A stretch of DNA of 34,048 bases from a virus. Both the position numbers and the translations under genes were made by a program. Positions 1-34,048 of the stretch are shown here, piece by piece (position 1 is the stretch's first letter; every line of letters begins with the position of its first letter). The DNA lies in IMG/VR virus record IMGVR_UViG_3300027770_000016, positions 1 through 34,048 of that record. One strand, 5' to 3'. A model generated the notes under the pieces. That model saw only the letters and a list, made by a program, of their open reading frames with translations. It did not search any database and had not been told where the DNA came from.

Positions 1-60
1 TGTTGGAATCAGGAACTTCCCCAAGTTCATACATCCCCACAACCACAGCGCAAGTAAGCC
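1..60. repeat. Terminal direct repeat, left copy (assembly overlap)
   Basis: Bases 1-60 are identical to bases 33989-34048. The copy falls inside the fibre reading frame at both ends and keeps the frame when the ends are joined. This is what a circular or circularly permuted assembly looks like. A real packaged terminal repeat this short, inside a coding region, would be unusual. Confidence 0.95.
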
Positions 61-24155: not shown

Positions 24156-24544
24156 GCAAAATTCCTTTTAAAATCCGCCCATGTTGCATCAAATTTTGTC
24201 CACGGTGCGCCTGCGCGCGCTTCAAGAGCCGCACGGATTAGGCGGTTCTTCATTTCCGATTTGCTCGCAGGCAGTTCGGGGAACAAGGTTTCGGGCTGTG
24301 ATGCGACCCAAACTATGGCGTTGCGCCCTGTGCGCGTTGGGGCGCGCTTGCCGGAATCCCTTATGGATTCCAACTTCTTCAAAGCCGTAAATGCCGGCGA
24401 GCAACTTTGATGAGTCAATTGCAACAGGCTCATTGCTTGATCGCAGGTGCAACCGCCAACGCGGTCTATTAGGTCACGCACCCGCGCTTGAATCCGTGAA
24501 GTGTCTACGGAATCGTACGCTTCCTTTGATGTTGTTTGAATCAT
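24152..24544 (-). CDS. Winged-helix DNA-binding protein, probable regulator
   Basis: 130 residues from the ATG that overlaps the lysozyme stop (ATGA); an upstream start would add 10 residues. The middle has a winged helix-turn-helix style: GGCTCDQAMSLLQLTHQSCSPAFTALKKL with the recognition-helix-like SPAFTALKKLE, then the wing IRDSGKRAPTRTGRNAIVWV. Related phage proteins of this style are common and usually unassigned, some act as regulators. It lies within the leftward operon with the lysozyme, so it may govern that operon or the divergent early promoter. C-terminal part is a basic helix. Confidence 0.6.
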   Translation of the reverse strand: MIQTTSKEAYDSVDTSRIQARVRDLIDRVGGCTCDQAMSLLQLTHQSCSPAFTALKKLESIRDSGKRAPTRTGRNAIVWVASQPETLFPELPASKSEMKNRLIRAALEARAGAPWTKFDATWADFKRNFA

Positions 24545-24939
24545 TGTGCAAGCACCTTTTGAATTTTCAACCAATACTTCAGCGTTGCCGGCTTCAAGTA
24601 ACCACGCGGCCCGCCGTTGTGAATCCTTGCAAGCATTTCCAAAGTAACGGTTTTGCCCTTGGGTGTATAGCGGGCAAGGTACGCTTGCACTACAGATTCC
24701 GCATACTTAGGATCTTTGCAATCTTGATAGCACCCGCTTACTTTTGAATCCTGCCAATAGCATTTCCAAATTTGAAAGACTCCAAGGGCTTTACCTTGAT
24801 CGCCTACTGCGTTGGCATCACCACCGGATTCCACTTGTTTTATGGCAGCAAGCAATCGCACCATGTCAGATTCCTGCACTTGTGCAAACGCGCTTGTTGC
24901 CGCCGTCAAGGATAAAACTAAAGGTATTAAGCGTTTCAT
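24541..24939 (-). CDS. Secreted lysozyme, destabilase-like endolysin
   Basis: 132 residues. Residues 1-19 are a Sec signal peptide (KRL, hydrophobic, then AFAQ cleavage site). The mature part has the lysozyme order: AAIKQVESGGDANAVGD with Glu37 as probable acid, ALGVFQIWKCYW (52-62), Cys at 60, 70 and 74, and ARIHNGGPRGY (104-113), a motif typical of the invertebrate-type (destabilase) lysozyme fold. It cuts peptidoglycan and with a signal peptide may not need a holin to reach the periplasm. It is the only recognised lysis enzyme and lies on the leftward transcript, apart from the spanin-like gene. Confidence 0.8.
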   Translation of the reverse strand: MKRLIPLVLSLTAATSAFAQVQESDMVRLLAAIKQVESGGDANAVGDQGKALGVFQIWKCYWQDSKVSGCYQDCKDPKYAESVVQAYLARYTPKGKTVTLEMLARIHNGGPRGYLKPATLKYWLKIQKVLAQ

Positions 24940-25816: not shown

Positions 25817-26287
25817 ATGACAACTGCAAACTTTACTGACCGTTTAAGCGTTAAAAAAATGAATGTTGCAATTAACCTTTCCCGTGAAACAACTGCGTTT
25901 ACGGCAGACATTTATTTGGATGGGCGCAAAATTGGCAAAGCAATTAACGATGGCAATGGCGGCGCAACAAATTGTTGGATTGAAAATGATTTGATTGTTG
26001 CAAATTATGGCCACATCATTGAAACATGGATTGATGCGCGCGCCGCCGATGCTGAAAATGCAAAGCGTAATTTGCTTGCATCACGCAAAAATGAGAAGTG
26101 GATCCAAAAGCAACTTCAACAAAACAGATATGTCTTTACCACAGGCAATGAAATTATGGCGCACAGCGATTTTGTAGTTCCAATGCAATCTGATGAACTA
26201 GAAGCAGAGCGAAATTATTGCATCAACAAAATTAAATTAGTGTATCCCGATGCAAAAGATTTCAGATTCCCCGAATCTTTGGTTTGA
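25817..26287 (+). CDS. First early gene, unknown
   Basis: 156 residues, strong TAGGAG ribosome site. N-terminal part is beta-like (NVAINLSRETTAFTADIYLDGRKIGKAINDGNGG), followed by helical stretches (ETWIDARAADAENAKRNLLASRKNEKWIQKQLQQN). No recognised domain and no Cys cluster. First position after the early promoter and separate from the rest by a terminator suggests a host-takeover or early control protein; this is inference only. Confidence 0.7.
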   Translation: MTTANFTDRLSVKKMNVAINLSRETTAFTADIYLDGRKIGKAINDGNGGATNCWIENDLIVANYGHIIETWIDARAADAENAKRNLLASRKNEKWIQKQLQQNRYVFTTGNEIMAHSDFVVPMQSDELEAERNYCINKIKLVYPDAKDFRFPESLV

Positions 26288-26378: not shown

Positions 26379-27407
26379 ATGTCTGATATAGAGAAAAAGA
26401 ATGGAATGGCAGCGGCTATTGAACAAGTAGTTATTGGGGGCGATTTGTCACGCTTATCATCGGAACAGCGTGTTTCGTATGTAAACAATATCTGTAGTTC
26501 GCTTGGGTTAAATCCAACAACCCGCCCTTTTGAGTACATCACTTTAAGCGGCAAACTTACTTTGTACGCAACGCGCGCTTGCAGCGAGCAACTACGCAAA
26601 CTCAACGGCGTAACGATCTTTCCGCTAGATCGTTCCATGATGACCGAAGTGGGCTTATATCAAGTCATTGCACGAGGGAAGGATGCAACAGGTAGAGAAG
26701 ATGAATCAAGCGGCGTTGTGACTATTGCCGGCTTGAAGGGTGAAATGCTTGCCAACGCAATGTTGAAATGCGAAACAAAAGCAAAGCGCAGATTAACGCT
26801 TTCAATTTGTGGCCTTGGGTTCTTGGATGAAACGGAAGTTTCAGATATCCCTAACGCAAGACATGAGCCAACCAATTACGCCGCAGCCGCGCCGCAAGCG
26901 GTCAGCAACGCCACCGCTAGAGTGGAGCAAGTACAGCCAAAAATCGCTGCGCCTGTTGGAATCGCTGTTGAATCGAAGCGGGCGGTTGCGGCTAAATTTG
27001 TGGAATCGTCAGCGGTGGAAGCACCGCAAGCAAAGCAGTCCGAAGGCTTTAAATACAAGTGCGAGCGGATGCCTAAGGACGTTGTGCTTCAACTTGGGGC
27101 TGCAACCGTGGTCAAGATTGGCACAGGCAAGCCAACAAAGACCGGCGGCTCACGCGTTCCAATTTTGTTTGACCGAAACGGTGATGAGTTTTGGGTTGGT
27201 GCATTTGACAGCGGTTTAGTAAATGCCTGCGCTACCTGCGAAGAAAACGGAATGCGCGTGGAATTGCTTGTGCAACCCAATGATAAGTTCGGTTCGACCT
27301 TGTACGGCATCCGTGAGTATTTCAGCGATAGCGCGCAGGTCGATATTGAAGAACCCGAAATGGTTGTTGCCGCAGCACCAATTGATTTGAACGACATTCC
27401 ATTTTGA
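26379..27407 (+). CDS. RecT/Erf-like annealing protein with SSB-type C-terminus
   Basis: 342 residues. The N-terminal half has SLGLNPTTRPFEYITLSGKLTLYATRACSEQLRKLNGV, then GEMLANAMLKCETKAKRRLTLSICGLGFLDETEV, the pattern I associate with phage single-strand annealing (RecT/Erf-like) proteins, though I could not verify it. A variable Ala/Pro/Val linker follows, then a C-terminal region with DRNGDEFWVGAF and a final DLNDIPF (residues 336-342). The last residues resemble the DDIPF tip with which bacterial SSB recruits partners. It begins at ATG 26379; an out-of-frame ATG at 26374 stops at once. Likely acts on ssDNA in recombination or replication. Confidence 0.6.
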   Translation: MSDIEKKNGMAAAIEQVVIGGDLSRLSSEQRVSYVNNICSSLGLNPTTRPFEYITLSGKLTLYATRACSEQLRKLNGVTIFPLDRSMMTEVGLYQVIARGKDATGREDESSGVVTIAGLKGEMLANAMLKCETKAKRRLTLSICGLGFLDETEVSDIPNARHEPTNYAAAAPQAVSNATARVEQVQPKIAAPVGIAVESKRAVAAKFVESSAVEAPQAKQSEGFKYKCERMPKDVVLQLGAATVVKIGTGKPTKTGGSRVPILFDRNGDEFWVGAFDSGLVNACATCEENGMRVELLVQPNDKFGSTLYGIREYFSDSAQVDIEEPEMVVAAAPIDLNDIPF

Positions 27408-27418
27408 TTAAACATAGG

Positions 27419-27452
27419 GGTTGGCGGTTATCTTCGACGGATACCGCCAACC
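27419..27452 (+). promoter_or_regulatory. Hairpin before the Gp157-like gene
   Basis: GGTTGGCGGT (27419-27428) pairs with ACCGCCAACC (27443-27452), a 10-bp stem that can grow by three pairs past a bulge. No clear T-run follows, so it is more likely an RNA stabiliser or weak attenuator than a full terminator. Confidence 0.5.
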
Positions 27453-27475
27453 CTGCTCTTTACAAGGAAATACAA

Positions 27476-27991
27476 ATGACAGAATTACAGCGAGTTTACA
27501 AGGCGAGCCAAGCGGCTCAACAGTTGGAAGCGTTGCTTCTTAGCACGGAAGAATCCGGCGGTGATGCTACTTTGCTCATGGGACAAATTGATGTTTTGGC
27601 AGCAACAGCAAGCACGTTAGGGGGTTGTTTTGATGATCTTTTATCGGTGGCCGCAGAGATCACAATGCGGGCTAGTACGCGTAAACAGGAAGCGGCGCGC
27701 TTAAATGCGCTTGCAAAACGCGATGAAGCAATGGTTGCATTTATGAAGCAACAAGTTATGCGTGTCATGCAAGAATCGGATATTGAAAAGTTGGAAACAC
27801 CGCTTCATAAATTGAGCATTGCAAACGCGGGCGGCAAACAATCAATGGAAATTGTTGGCGATGTTCCGCCGGAATTTACCATGACTGAAATCGTTCCAAA
27901 CAAGGAATTGATTAGGTCTAAATTAGAAGCCGGCGAACAACTTAACTTTGCGCTGTTGCATCCCCGTACTCAAACTTTAAGGATTTCATAA
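27476..27991 (+). CDS. Siphovirus Gp157-like protein
   Basis: 171 residues from ATG 27476, preceded by AAGGAAA; the longer upstream start crosses the hairpin and is unlikely. Helical N-terminus (residues 1-110) with repeated coiled-coil-like segments (KASQAAQQLEALLLS, ASTRKQEAARLNALAKRDEAM), then the characteristic region ESDIEKLETPLHKLSIANAGGKQSMEIVGDVPPEFTMTE. That pattern fits the Gp157 family of siphoviruses, which often lies in recombination or early clusters. Exact biochemical role not established here; partner of the annealing protein is possible. Confidence 0.7.
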   Translation: MTELQRVYKASQAAQQLEALLLSTEESGGDATLLMGQIDVLAATASTLGGCFDDLLSVAAEITMRASTRKQEAARLNALAKRDEAMVAFMKQQVMRVMQESDIEKLETPLHKLSIANAGGKQSMEIVGDVPPEFTMTEIVPNKELIRSKLEAGEQLNFALLHPRTQTLRIS

Positions 27992-28323: not shown

Positions 28324-28644
28324 ATGACCGCAACGCAAAAGCAACATTATTTCCTGCGCCGTGAAGATGATGAAATCTTGATGGGTCGCAAAGGCTATTG
28401 GTTGCTTGCGCGTGATCACGATGATGTCTACCTATGTTTGCAGTTTCTAGGAATTGATGGCTTTGAGGGCGACCAAATTCTTGTGAAGGAATTTGAAGTT
28501 GCCAAGGAATCCATAACGGAATATGACTGTGCAACGCAGGAAATTAAAACTTACGACCGCATGACGTTTACCATCATCACGGAAGCCGGCACAAATTTTG
28601 TCGGCGTGTTGGTCGGTCACGCCGCCGTTAAGGCAAAAAAATGA
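28324..28644 (+). CDS. Small early protein, unknown, acidic
   Basis: 106 residues. Contains LRREDDEILMGRKGYWLLARDHDDVYLCLQFLGIDGFEGDQILV and TITEAGTNFVGVLVGH. Predominantly beta-like with many Asp/Glu. ATGA overlap with the next gene. No family seen. Confidence 0.6.
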   Translation: MTATQKQHYFLRREDDEILMGRKGYWLLARDHDDVYLCLQFLGIDGFEGDQILVKEFEVAKESITEYDCATQEIKTYDRMTFTIITEAGTNFVGVLVGHAAVKAKK

Positions 28645-28889
28645 CAAACGAAAACCAACCATCATTGTTTGAAAATGAAAAAGCATGGAAAGAACATTGG
28701 CAAGGTATGCCCGAATTTGTTCAACCAAGCAAAGAATCAATAAAACAAATTATTGTTCATTTTGAAACCTTTGAAGATGTTAAAAAGTTTTCTGAATTGG
28801 TAGGCATTAAAATTTCTGTAGATACCAAAAGTTTTTTTTATCCGCCAAAAAAACAATCTGATTTAATGGTTTATGTAGATGAATCCTAA
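28641..28889 (+). CDS. 82-residue protein coupled to the glycosyltransferase
   Basis: 82 residues: WKEHWQGMPEFVQPSKESIKQIIVHFETFEDVKKFSELVGIKISVDTKSFFYPPKK. It overlaps the glycosyltransferase start by 11 bases and the previous stop by ATGA. The pattern MPEFVQ... FETFEDVKKF... IKISVDTKSFFYP is of a kind I recall next to this glycosyltransferase type in other phages, but this was not checked. It may be a partner or accessory. Confidence 0.6.
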   Translation: MTNENQPSLFENEKAWKEHWQGMPEFVQPSKESIKQIIVHFETFEDVKKFSELVGIKISVDTKSFFYPPKKQSDLMVYVDES

Positions 28890-29751
28890 ACACCCAATTT
28901 ATATTGTGTCCAAGGGAAGATGGGATAGCCGTCTTACAAGCAAAGCGTTAGAAGCAATGGGCGTTCCTTATTACATAATTGTTGAACAAAACGAATATGA
29001 AAAATATGCGGAATTTATTTCCAAGAAAAAAATTCTAGTTTTGCCGCAATTATTTTTGGATAAGTATGAAACACTAGACAATTTAGGCGAAACAAAAAGC
29101 AAAGGGCCCGGGGCCGCGCGTAATTTTTGTTGGCAACATTCAATTCAAATTGGCGCAAGGTGGCATTGGGTACTTGACGACAACATTAACGGATTTGTCC
29201 GACTCAATCGTAACCAACGCATAAAAGTACAAACCGGATCAATGTTTGCGGCGGCTGAAGATTTTGTAGACCGGTATGAAAATGTGGCGCAAGCAGGATT
29301 TGAATACAGATTTTTTGCCGGAGGCGGCAGGCGCGAAAAAGCACCCTTTAGATTAAACACCCGTGTTTACTCTTGCATTTTAATACGAAACGATATTCCT
29401 TTTCGGTGGCGTGGTCGATACAACGAAGACACAATTTTGTCTTTAGATATTTTGAAGCAGGGTTGGGCAACAATTTTGTTTCAAGCGTTTTTGCAAAACA
29501 AAGCGGCAACCCAAACCGTCAAGGGCGGAAATTCTAAAGATTTTTACGATTATGAAGGAACTTTGCCAAAGTCTAAAATGCTTGTTGACACCTATCCGGA
29601 ATATGCAAGGTTGGTTACTCGATACGGGCGATGCCATCACCATGTCGATTACCAACCTTTTCAGGCAAATAAATTTGTACGCAAGGCTGAAATCAAAATT
29701 AAAAAAGAAGTAAACAACTATGGGATGGTTTTGCGGCAATGCCGCCGCTAG
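28879..29751 (+). CDS. TET-associated-type glycosyltransferase (TAGT-like)
   Basis: 290 residues. The order is that of the phage TAGT family: N-terminal IYIVSKGRWDSRLTSKALEAMGVPYYIIVEQNEYEKY (7-43), KGPGAARNFCWQHS (75-88), the metal-binding-like VLDDNINGFVRLN (98-110), EDFVDRYENVAQAG (127-140), RVYSCILIRNDIPFRWRGRYNEDT (162-185), and GGNSKDFYDYEG followed by GRCHHHVDYQPF (250-261). Known TAGT enzymes transfer sugars to hydroxymethylcytosine made by phage TET oxygenases. I find no TET, cytosine methyltransferase or hydroxymethylase in this window, so the acceptor here is uncertain. Confidence 0.8.
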   Translation: MNPKHPIYIVSKGRWDSRLTSKALEAMGVPYYIIVEQNEYEKYAEFISKKKILVLPQLFLDKYETLDNLGETKSKGPGAARNFCWQHSIQIGARWHWVLDDNINGFVRLNRNQRIKVQTGSMFAAAEDFVDRYENVAQAGFEYRFFAGGGRREKAPFRLNTRVYSCILIRNDIPFRWRGRYNEDTILSLDILKQGWATILFQAFLQNKAATQTVKGGNSKDFYDYEGTLPKSKMLVDTYPEYARLVTRYGRCHHHVDYQPFQANKFVRKAEIKIKKEVNNYGMVLRQCRR

Positions 29752-29956: not shown

Positions 29957-30772
29957 ATGAGTTTAACAAATGCAGGCGCGCCATTGGCGTTCCTCAAATT
30001 CTACGGTAGCGACTTCCTAAATTCAACTGCGTCTTGGACAATGGAAGAGCGCGGAGTTTACATGACCTTGCTTTGGTACGCATGGGTAAACGATGGGCTT
30101 CCGCCGGAAGTTGACCGCCTAGACCGTATGGCTGCCGGAACCAAATCCTGTTGGTCAGTCGTTGGCTCAAAGTTTCCTATTGCGGAAGATGGCTTGCGCC
30201 GCAACCCGCGCATGGAGCGTGACCGCCAAACCTTGTTAGTTCAACTTGAAACATGGAAGGCAAGAGGAACAAAAGGGGCTGCAAAACGATGGTCAAAGGA
30301 TGCTTCAAGCAATGCTTTAAGCATTGCCCAAGCATCACCCAAGCAATGCTTAGAAGATGCTCAACCGATAGTATGTCAGATATCAGATGTCAGATATCAG
30401 ATATCAGATATCAAATCTCAGATTTCAAATTCAGATAAAAAACATACGCTCATCGGCTTCGCCGCCGAGCAAGATATTTCACCGCCAAGGAAGAAACCGG
30501 CAAGCAGCATCACGGATTCCGATTGTGAAATTGTGTGGCAAATCTTTCCACGCCGCGTAGGTAAAAAGAAAGCCTTTATTTTGATCCGAAAAGCGGCCGC
30601 TGAACTTGCTGAAGAATACGAACAAGATGATCCCGCAGCCGGCATTTCCGTCTTGTGCGAACGAGTACAAAAATTCGCCGATGCCAACAAAACCGCCGAC
30701 CCCAAATTTATCGCACATCCAACCACTTGGCTACAGCAGGGGCGTTACCTCGACCCGCAGGAGGCTTTGTAA
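29957..30772 (+). CDS. DUF1376-type replication protein
   Basis: 271 residues. The N-terminal 110 (AFLKFYGSDFLNSTASWTMEERGVYMTLLWYAWVNDGLPP, ending in KGAAKRW) has the DUF1376 pattern, a winged-helix-like replication initiator domain. The centre has three heptad-like units QISDVRY, QISDIKS, QISNSD. The C-terminus (EIVWQIFPRRVGKKKAF... FIAHPTTWLQQGRYLDP) is that of phage replication and helicase-loading proteins. Such genes often carry the origin inside, as in lambda O, and the DNA here shows repeats in the centre. Its stop overlaps the next ATG by one base. Confidence 0.8.
   Translation: MSLTNAGAPLAFLKFYGSDFLNSTASWTMEERGVYMTLLWYAWVNDGLPPEVDRLDRMAAGTKSCWSVVGSKFPIAEDGLRRNPRMERDRQTLLVQLETWKARGTKGAAKRWSKDASSNALSIAQASPKQCLEDAQPIVCQISDVRYQISDIKSQISNSDKKHTLIGFAAEQDISPPRKKPASSITDSDCEIVWQIFPRRVGKKKAFILIRKAAAELAEEYEQDDPAAGISVLCERVQKFADANKTADPKFIAHPTTWLQQGRYLDPQEAL
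30307..30351 (+). repeat. Three copies of an AAGCAATGCTT-like element
   Basis: The 19-base palindrome GCAATGCTTTAAGCATTGC (30309-30327) has perfect 9-bp arms. AAGCAATGCTT recurs in direct orientation at 30341-30351. Three related half-sites within 45 bases, just before the heptamer array, may bind the initiator. Confidence 0.6.
30377..30432 (+). repeat. Heptamer repeat array, candidate replication origin
   Basis: Eight tandem 7-base units of form CAGATAT (units: cagatat, cagatgt, cagatat three times, caaatct, cagattt, caaattc) run from 30377 to 30432. The array is inside the replication gene, A/T-rich, and adjacent to the AAGCAATGCTT elements. Iteron arrays within the initiator gene mark the origins of lambda-like phages. 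The three bases of a codon and the 7-base period combine to give a 7-residue protein repeat. Confidence 0.6.
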
Positions 30773-33237: not shown

Positions 33238-34048
33238 ATGCGAACGCGCCAAGTCATAATGCCACGCCGGTATTCCCGCATGGGAATTGGTGGCGATGGC
33301 TCTACGCTGAATTTGGATTTTACAGGTGGCTCTTTAGATTCTCGCGTGGTGCTGACACGATCAGCGGCTACAGCGACCTACATCAATTCGTCGGGCTATG
33401 TTGCAACTGCGGCGGCAAACGAAGCGCGGTTTGATTATGACCCGACGACGCTTGCGGCGAAGGGGCTGTTGATTGAGGGTAGCGCAACTAATTATCTTTA
33501 CGGCAGTCAATCTTTTGCTACTAGCGGCCTTTCTGTGAATTGGAGCGATGGCGCAATTTTATCGCGGACTAGCGGAAACACAGACCCTGCAAACGGTGCA
33601 ACCGCAATTGGATTCAATGAAACTTTGGCTTTGGATTATCACCGGATTTCAACAAATTATAGTTTGACAGGCGTGGTAACGATTAGCGTGTTTGCAAAAC
33701 AAATAAACGCCGCTAGACGATTTGCGATTAACGCGCAAAATTACGCGGGTGTATCTGCGATTTTTGATCTTACATCAGGATTGCAAGTTGGTTCAACAGG
33801 TGGAACCGCAATTAACAAAGCAGCAACCGCAACAGCATATGCAAACGGATGGTTTCGATTTAGTGTCACGGGTACTTATGTTGGGGCCGCAAATGTTTAC
33901 TTTTCAATTTGCTCGTCAACCTCAACAGATACTACAGGCGCAAATTTTACGGGAACTTCTGACGGTGGTGTTTATATATGGGGCGCAATGTTGGAATCAG
34001 GAACTTCCCCAAGTTCATACATCCCCACAACCACAGCGCAAGTAAGCC
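33238..34048 (+). CDS. Tail fibre / head spike-type protein, N-terminal part
   Basis: From ATG 33238 this frame runs open to the window end and, through the 60-base overlap, into 1-566, giving 438 residues. Key N-terminal features: STLNLDFTGGSLDSRVVLTRSA, RFDYDPTTLAAKGLLIEGSATNYL (the head spike/fibre domain signature), SGLSVNWSDGAIL and GGVYIWGAMLESG. The C-terminal part is the LamG-like domain described at 1-566. This places an adhesive fibre after the small virion protein. The out-of-frame reading near 33722-34045 is not real. Confidence 0.85.
   Translation, partial: MRTRQVIMPRRYSRMGIGGDGSTLNLDFTGGSLDSRVVLTRSAATATYINSSGYVATAAANEARFDYDPTTLAAKGLLIEGSATNYLYGSQSFATSGLSVNWSDGAILSRTSGNTDPANGATAIGFNETLALDYHRISTNYSLTGVVTISVFAKQINAARRFAINAQNYAGVSAIFDLTSGLQVGSTGGTAINKAATATAYANGWFRFSVTGTYVGAANVYFSICSSTSTDTTGANFTGTSDGGVYIWGAMLESGTSPSSYIPTTTAQVS
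33989..34048. repeat. Terminal direct repeat, right copy (assembly overlap)
   Basis: Identical to bases 1-60. Removing one copy leaves about 33,988 bp and joins the two parts of the fibre gene in frame. Confidence 0.95.

Follow-up and report, generated by a model that had tools for sequence, protein, structure and literature searches.

Glycosyltransferases of the TET-associated type (TAGTs) are plentiful in phages and have mostly been annotated after the enzyme of T6, whose acceptor is glucosylated hydroxymethylcytosine. This enzyme, the beta-glucosyl-HMC-alpha-glucosyltransferase of T2 and T6 (PF20691), extends alpha-glucosyl-hmC according to PMC13216743, and in T6 its gene adjoins one that reads as a dCMP-hydroxymethylase. 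The glucosyl-hmC system of the T-even phages comprises a dCMP hydroxymethylase together with alpha-GT and beta-GT, and the TET-associated DNA hypermodification system combines a TET/JBP enzyme with a cytosine-C5 methyltransferase. In the TET-TAGT-methylase cluster of Nonlabens phage P12024L, the TET gene lies immediately upstream of the TAGT gene. Solitary TAGTs, unaccompanied by an alpha- or beta-glucosyltransferase, are reported from 288 of 753 phage genomes in the same paper, and the TAGT of phage Aeh1 has been listed as 'presumably modifies DNA, unknown base', with reference to Iyer et al. 2013 (PMC8056088). The TAGT itself, its solitary members and the Aeh1 orphan enzyme presumed to modify DNA are thus already known.

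Here we compare with these systems a viral DNA of 34,048 bp (IMG/VR record IMGVR_UViG_3300027770_000016), the whole of which is referred to below as the window. Its TAGT resembles the solitary enzymes but lies directly behind a gene for a small protein with a domain that we have named MPEF, and the passages of PMC13216743 consulted mention neither an MPEF nor a ParB partner. The window enzyme belongs to the same Pfam family and GT-A fold as that of T6; however, the window has no hydroxymethylase gene and has the conserved MPEF gene instead. Neither the dCMP hydroxymethylase nor the alpha-GT/beta-GT of the T-even system was found in it, and both components of the TET-associated system are missing. 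The TAGT of P12024L, a phage of similar size, is 24% identical to that of the window and has no MPEF beside it. Aeh1 provides a closer relative (about 52% identity) in which MPEF is fused to the N-terminus of the TAGT, but Aeh1 is a 233-kb lytic phage with one fused protein, whereas the window represents a 34-kb phage with two overlapping genes. Because no gene for a known acceptor is present and a near-constant adaptor accompanies the relatives, the TAGT is most likely one half of a two-part enzyme. In the literature searched, to which Iyer et al. 2013 did not belong, we met no account of the MPEF partner, of ParB-MPEF fusions or of the two-gene unit, and priority for the MPEF partner is therefore not certain.

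The MPEF-TAGT gene pair in the window

An exact 60-bp direct repeat at the ends of the window (1-60 and 33989-34048) would fit a complete genome, and the contig is probably a circle of 33,988 bp; an ORF appears to cross the junction of the circularised molecule. Table 1 presents the features of the locus. The original prediction had placed a TAGT of 290 residues here, and this identification stands: the ORF is present with the motifs that were quoted for it, and its product scores 149.6 bits with the PF20691 profile (E=1.5e-43), above the curated cut-off of 27.5, and matches PHROG 842 with E=3.6e-50. Conservation across 143 relatives is 97% or higher for each of the residues DDN100-102, N182-E183-D184, G216-G217, R251 and H254, so that the enzyme looks intact. 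A predicted structure of the homologous Aeh1 MPEF-TAGT fusion (pLDDT 84.6, pTM 0.84) retrieves GT-A enzymes from the PDB, with COLGALT1 and GnT-I at the top (E about 1e-4, modest TM-scores). This model, made for the homologue and not for the window protein, supports a GT-A fold for the TAGT, and the T6 enzyme has likewise been assigned to GT-A in PMC13216743. Such fold matches would speak for the fold and not for the identity of the acceptor.

Table 1. Features of the MPEF-TAGT locus and its early-region context, in window coordinates.
Feature	Position	Strand	Evidence or remark
Gp157-like protein, early-region context	27404..27991	+	Pfam (PF05565), PHROG ('Mu Gam-like')
MPEF adaptor protein, 82 aa, apparently an obligate partner	28641..28889	+	Directly 5' of TAGT in 143/150 non-redundant loci, 13 of these fused
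11-nt MPEF/TAGT overlap	28879..28889	+	GTAGATGAATCCTAA
TAGT glycosyltransferase, 290 aa, presumed catalytic subunit	28879..29751	+	PF20691, PHROG 842
DDN, residues 100-102, presumed metal/NDP-sugar site (DXD-like)	29176..29184	+	141/141 at each position; role assigned from GT-A enzymes
N-E-D, residues 182-184, presumed catalytic base region	29422..29430	+	140, 138 and 140 of 140; role presumed
DUF1376/primosomal replication protein, early-region context	29957..30772	+	PHROG 9327, E 3e-20

The 82-residue product gave nothing above cut-off in Pfam and no family in PHROGs or NCBIfam. Its conserved residues are W20, M23-P24, F50 and P68, and E25, F41 and L53 are nearly invariant. The nucleotides shared by the two genes code both for the conserved C-terminal DES-stop of MPEF and for the MNP start of the TAGT, with the TAGT ATG inside the DES-stop codons, and an overlap of this length is the commonest MPEF/TAGT spacing (28 of 66 pairs). 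Since start and stop are shared in this way, and since no ribosome-binding site is obvious in GTAGATGAATCCTAA ahead of the TAGT ATG, the nucleotide sequence suggests that the two genes are translationally coupled.

Elsewhere in the window, a lysozyme-like lysis protein (Destabilase/SLT family) is encoded at 24541-24939 on the minus strand. An early protein of 342 residues (26379-27407), with no Pfam or PHROG match and 46% identity to a protein of one related locus (L221), is possibly a recombination protein. A search of the window genes against PADLOC found no defence-system member, and such a role was set aside.

Conservation and mobility of the pair

At least 599 candidate TAGT relatives were found in viral contigs. 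In the first 80 loci the family of the 82-residue protein accompanies the TAGT in 67, directly upstream. With near-copies removed (TAGTs at least 90% identical), the matches listed yielded 150 non-redundant loci, and in 143 of these MPEF lies just 5' of the TAGT, as it does in the window, an arrangement that we define as the MPEF-TAGT two-gene unit. These 143 comprise 82 loci with MPEF alone, 48 with a ParB-MPEF protein and 13 in which MPEF is fused to the TAGT; the MPEF-alone set includes L265, which is in spirit a member of the ParB group because a ParB-like ORF lies immediately upstream. The other seven are four truncated loci, two fragments and one with a divergent MPEF that was seen by eye (L255).

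The association was also approached from the side of MPEF. Consensus queries for MPEF alone, run against viral contigs, added about 126 loci, and in the pooled set 214 of 217 MPEF domains are followed on the same strand by a TAGT no more than 2.5 kb away, although divergent free MPEFs could be missed because the consensus was derived from copies linked to a TAGT and because the best 80 of 220 matches entered from the first scan. The three exceptions are one truncated case and two second copies beside the fused MPEF-TAGT genes of Aeh1 and POP12. All 16 records of named or isolated phages that contain MPEF also carry a TAGT, and a search of plasmids found no MPEF. Natural MPEF-TAGT fusions occur in Aeh1, phage 65, POP12, Kuja, PTm1, Vibrio 1.076.O and Vibrio 1.124.O. 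On a quick FastTree phylogeny of the TAGTs, the ParB state changes about 11 times, at least four of these changes being forced by well-supported branches, with gain and loss not told apart, while MPEF stays across the tree; it is the only gene next to the TAGT that is conserved in most loci. The suggestion that the coupled 82-residue protein may be part of a two-gene unit is thus borne out by its near-universal presence in this TAGT clade, and we hold with high confidence that the pair functions as a single unit.

Several loci show elaborations of this plan. In Aeh1 (L084:5921-6064) and POP12 (L088:4876-5007) the second MPEF gene is free-standing and immediately follows the fused gene, and a second, degenerate MPEF-like repeat precedes MPEF at the N-termini of two TAGT fusions (L301:1138-2619 and L085). 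Tandem TAGT genes, which possibly serve stepwise sugar addition, are present in Kuja (L085 3233-5921) and at L229 8001-9850. By sequence reading, an extra GT-B-like or cytidylyltransferase-like gene lies near MPEF-TAGT at L253:6902-7984, at L176:3178-3588 and in L053, and might supply or extend the sugar.

Among the matches listed, the TAGTs nearest to that of the window are those of L002 (78% identical), L014 (74%) and L003 (69%). Comparison of 20.9 kb of L002 with the window revealed only MPEF and TAGT in common; the flanks of L003 add one weak match beyond the pair, and L014 has one weak match elsewhere. The nearest relatives of the enzyme thus share little or nothing else with the window, which argues that the pair moves as a cassette. 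Related prophages reside in Bartonella (MAG), Chryseobacterium, Pantoea, Erwinia, Rhodovulum, Marivivens, an Acidobacteriaceae isolate and a Verrucomicrobiaceae MAG, so the cassette extends at least to Bacteroidota, Pseudomonadota, Acidobacteriota and Verrucomicrobiota.

Possible sources of the acceptor

Six-frame profile searches of the window detected no Tet_JBP, thymidylate-synthase/dCMP-hydroxymethylase or C5-methylase family, in agreement with the original prediction that a TET/JBP oxygenase, a cytosine methyltransferase and a thymidylate-synthase-type hydroxymethylase are all absent. As the same searches found TET in P12024L and thymidylate synthase in Aeh1, they evidently work. Tet_JBP was found in none of 60 MPEF-TAGT records, and a thymidylate-synthase-family gene in none of the 55 below 100 kb nor in a 334-kb contig; such genes were confined to six lytic phages larger than 100 kb (Aeh1, Kuja, PTm1, henriette, POP12 and 65). 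A cytosine-C5 methyltransferase occurs in 2 of 29 records tested, and no alpha-GT or beta-GT that might carry out a first glucosylation was matched among the proteins scanned with Pfam and PHROGs. For this clade, therefore, 'TET-associated' names the family and not the context. A priori, the enzyme might nevertheless be a classic TAGT that depends on TET or a hydroxymethylase, its partner having escaped detection through strong divergence or a position beyond the ends of the contig. Profiles can indeed overlook divergent enzymes and several of the contigs are fragments, but some of the records without TET or thymidylate synthase look near-complete, and the gene that most loci do conserve beside the TAGT is MPEF; we consider a missed partner very improbable.

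Two other sources had been suggested. One was an early protein of the window itself, the product of the gene at 25817, 27993 or 28324. These genes have no or merely weak phage relatives, and none has a relative in any of 269 loci; they are therefore not conserved partners, and this proposal was discarded. The other was the host, which might provide a modified base through a methylase or another activity, leaving the phage to add only the sugar. The absence of phage-encoded acceptor enzymes would be explained in this way, and C5-methylases are common in bacteria (PF00145 was found in 10 of 14 control genomes). However, none of 15 host or MAG genomes with such prophages encodes TET, which argues against a host TET as the source; the cassette is spread over at least four phyla whose host modifications differ; and plain 5mC has no hydroxyl to offer. 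Of this suggestion there remains a host-made base of some other kind, which we retain as an improbable acceptor.

Adaptors, neighbouring genes and the target

The adaptors of the relatives bear on the nature of the target. About one third of them carry a ParB domain. A predicted structure of a ParB-MPEF protein (pLDDT 88) has an N-terminal part that resembles Noc/ParB CTPases and sulfiredoxin, and the best PHROG matches of this part are the ParB-like phrog_620 (E 2.2e-56) and the N-terminus of the DNA methyltransferase phrog_498 (E 1.9e-46); in PADLOC, ParB-MPEF matches MTase_II (E 6e-34). The ParB-headed phage DNA methyltransferases of PHROG 498 therefore have the same N-terminal ParB as these adaptors, but it is followed by a methyltransferase domain and not by MPEF with a separate TAGT. 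The window adaptor is MPEF alone, and no ParB was found in the window, which in this respect resembles most of the loci with MPEF alone. Supply of ParB in trans was considered and rejected, as neither the window nor any tested record of the MPEF-alone type matched the Pfam ParB_N profile, which is, however, insensitive here.

Across the 150 loci, the neighbours, named by sequence reading, are genes for terminase large subunits, DUF1376/primosomal proteins, ERF, DnaB-like proteins and RusA. In henriette the fused gene is surrounded by genes for the clamp loader and DNA polymerase, and in Vibrio 1.124.O it adjoins an adenine methylase and a dUTPase. Modification of LPS or tail fibres was considered, but these neighbours are replication and packaging genes.

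Two further TAGT clades were compared. In the second (relatives of L273; L320-L396), another adaptor lies directly upstream of the TAGT and is ParB-headed in 65 of 74 testable loci, the rest being mostly adaptor alone. The domain of this adaptor, found in phages and prophages, has the motif KIEAPxYxPK...YYAHA...SALVIID. A third, small clade (L283, L317-L319) combines ParB with yet another C-terminal domain. Profile comparison gave a probability below 1% that the adaptors of the three clades form one homologous family, and so only the plan of an adaptor, often with ParB, and a TAGT is common to them.

The ParB fusions and the replication and packaging neighbours lean towards DNA as the target, and the repetition of the ParB/adaptor plan in the second clade counts in the same direction. 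Against this stand the lack of ParB in over half of the loci and the closest solved folds, which include the protein glycosyltransferases COLGALT1 and GnT-I. It had been suggested that the target is not DNA, and in its most serious form this alternative holds that the pair glycosylates a protein, either of the host or virion or the adaptor (MPEF or ParB-MPEF) itself. Besides the fold matches, the lack of any known base-oxidising partner in the 60 records is in its favour, as is the little bulk DNA modification suggested for phages such as Aeh1. Petrov et al. 2010 (PMC2993671) record the absence of genes 42 and 56 and of the T-even glucosyltransferases from Aeh1 and 65. They argue that in T4 relatives without this whole network cytosine is probably not modified to a major extent, and ordinary restriction enzymes cut some of these DNAs. 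Bulk DNA glycosylation is therefore unlikely in phages like Aeh1, and a mark on DNA, if any, may be sparse. However, the ParB fusions are held in common with DNA methyltransferases, the neighbourhood is one of replication and packaging and not of tail genes, and fusion to the enzyme would be unusual for a mere acceptor. We keep a protein target as the main rival, though a rather unlikely one. Judged from these gene arrangements, DNA is the likelier target, a reading that we hold with about even confidence.

With similarly balanced confidence, we propose that MPEF and TAGT form a two-subunit transferase that is aimed at DNA and whose acceptor is made by no known route. The TAGT would bind an NDP-sugar donor at DDN, with NED as the catalytic base region, and MPEF would dock the enzyme on its target as a docking or specificity subunit. 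In a less certain step, phage DNA would be decorated during replication or packaging and would thereby resist host nucleases. The acceptor would come neither from TET nor, in phages of this size, from a thymidylate-synthase-type hydroxymethylase; candidates are a canonical position, a modification made by the host, and whatever an unrecognised activity might produce. The more specific idea that TAGTs guided by adaptors (MPEF, often ParB-headed) glycosylate an unmodified base or canonical position, with no prior hydroxylation, seems to us unlikely.

As a whole, these results have implications for how phage TAGTs are understood. No known pathway would give the MPEF-TAGT phages an acceptor of the T6 type, and a fixed partner, sometimes with a ParB like that of DNA methylases, offers a concrete two-subunit enzyme, open to expression and assay, in place of an orphan whose partner is missing. 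If its target is a protein, hundreds of phage genes are wrongly annotated. If the target is DNA, the pair would represent a new modification route, relevant to the evasion of restriction and CRISPR; and if that DNA is glycosylated at a canonical position, small phages and prophages in several phyla would possess a new route to glycosylated DNA.
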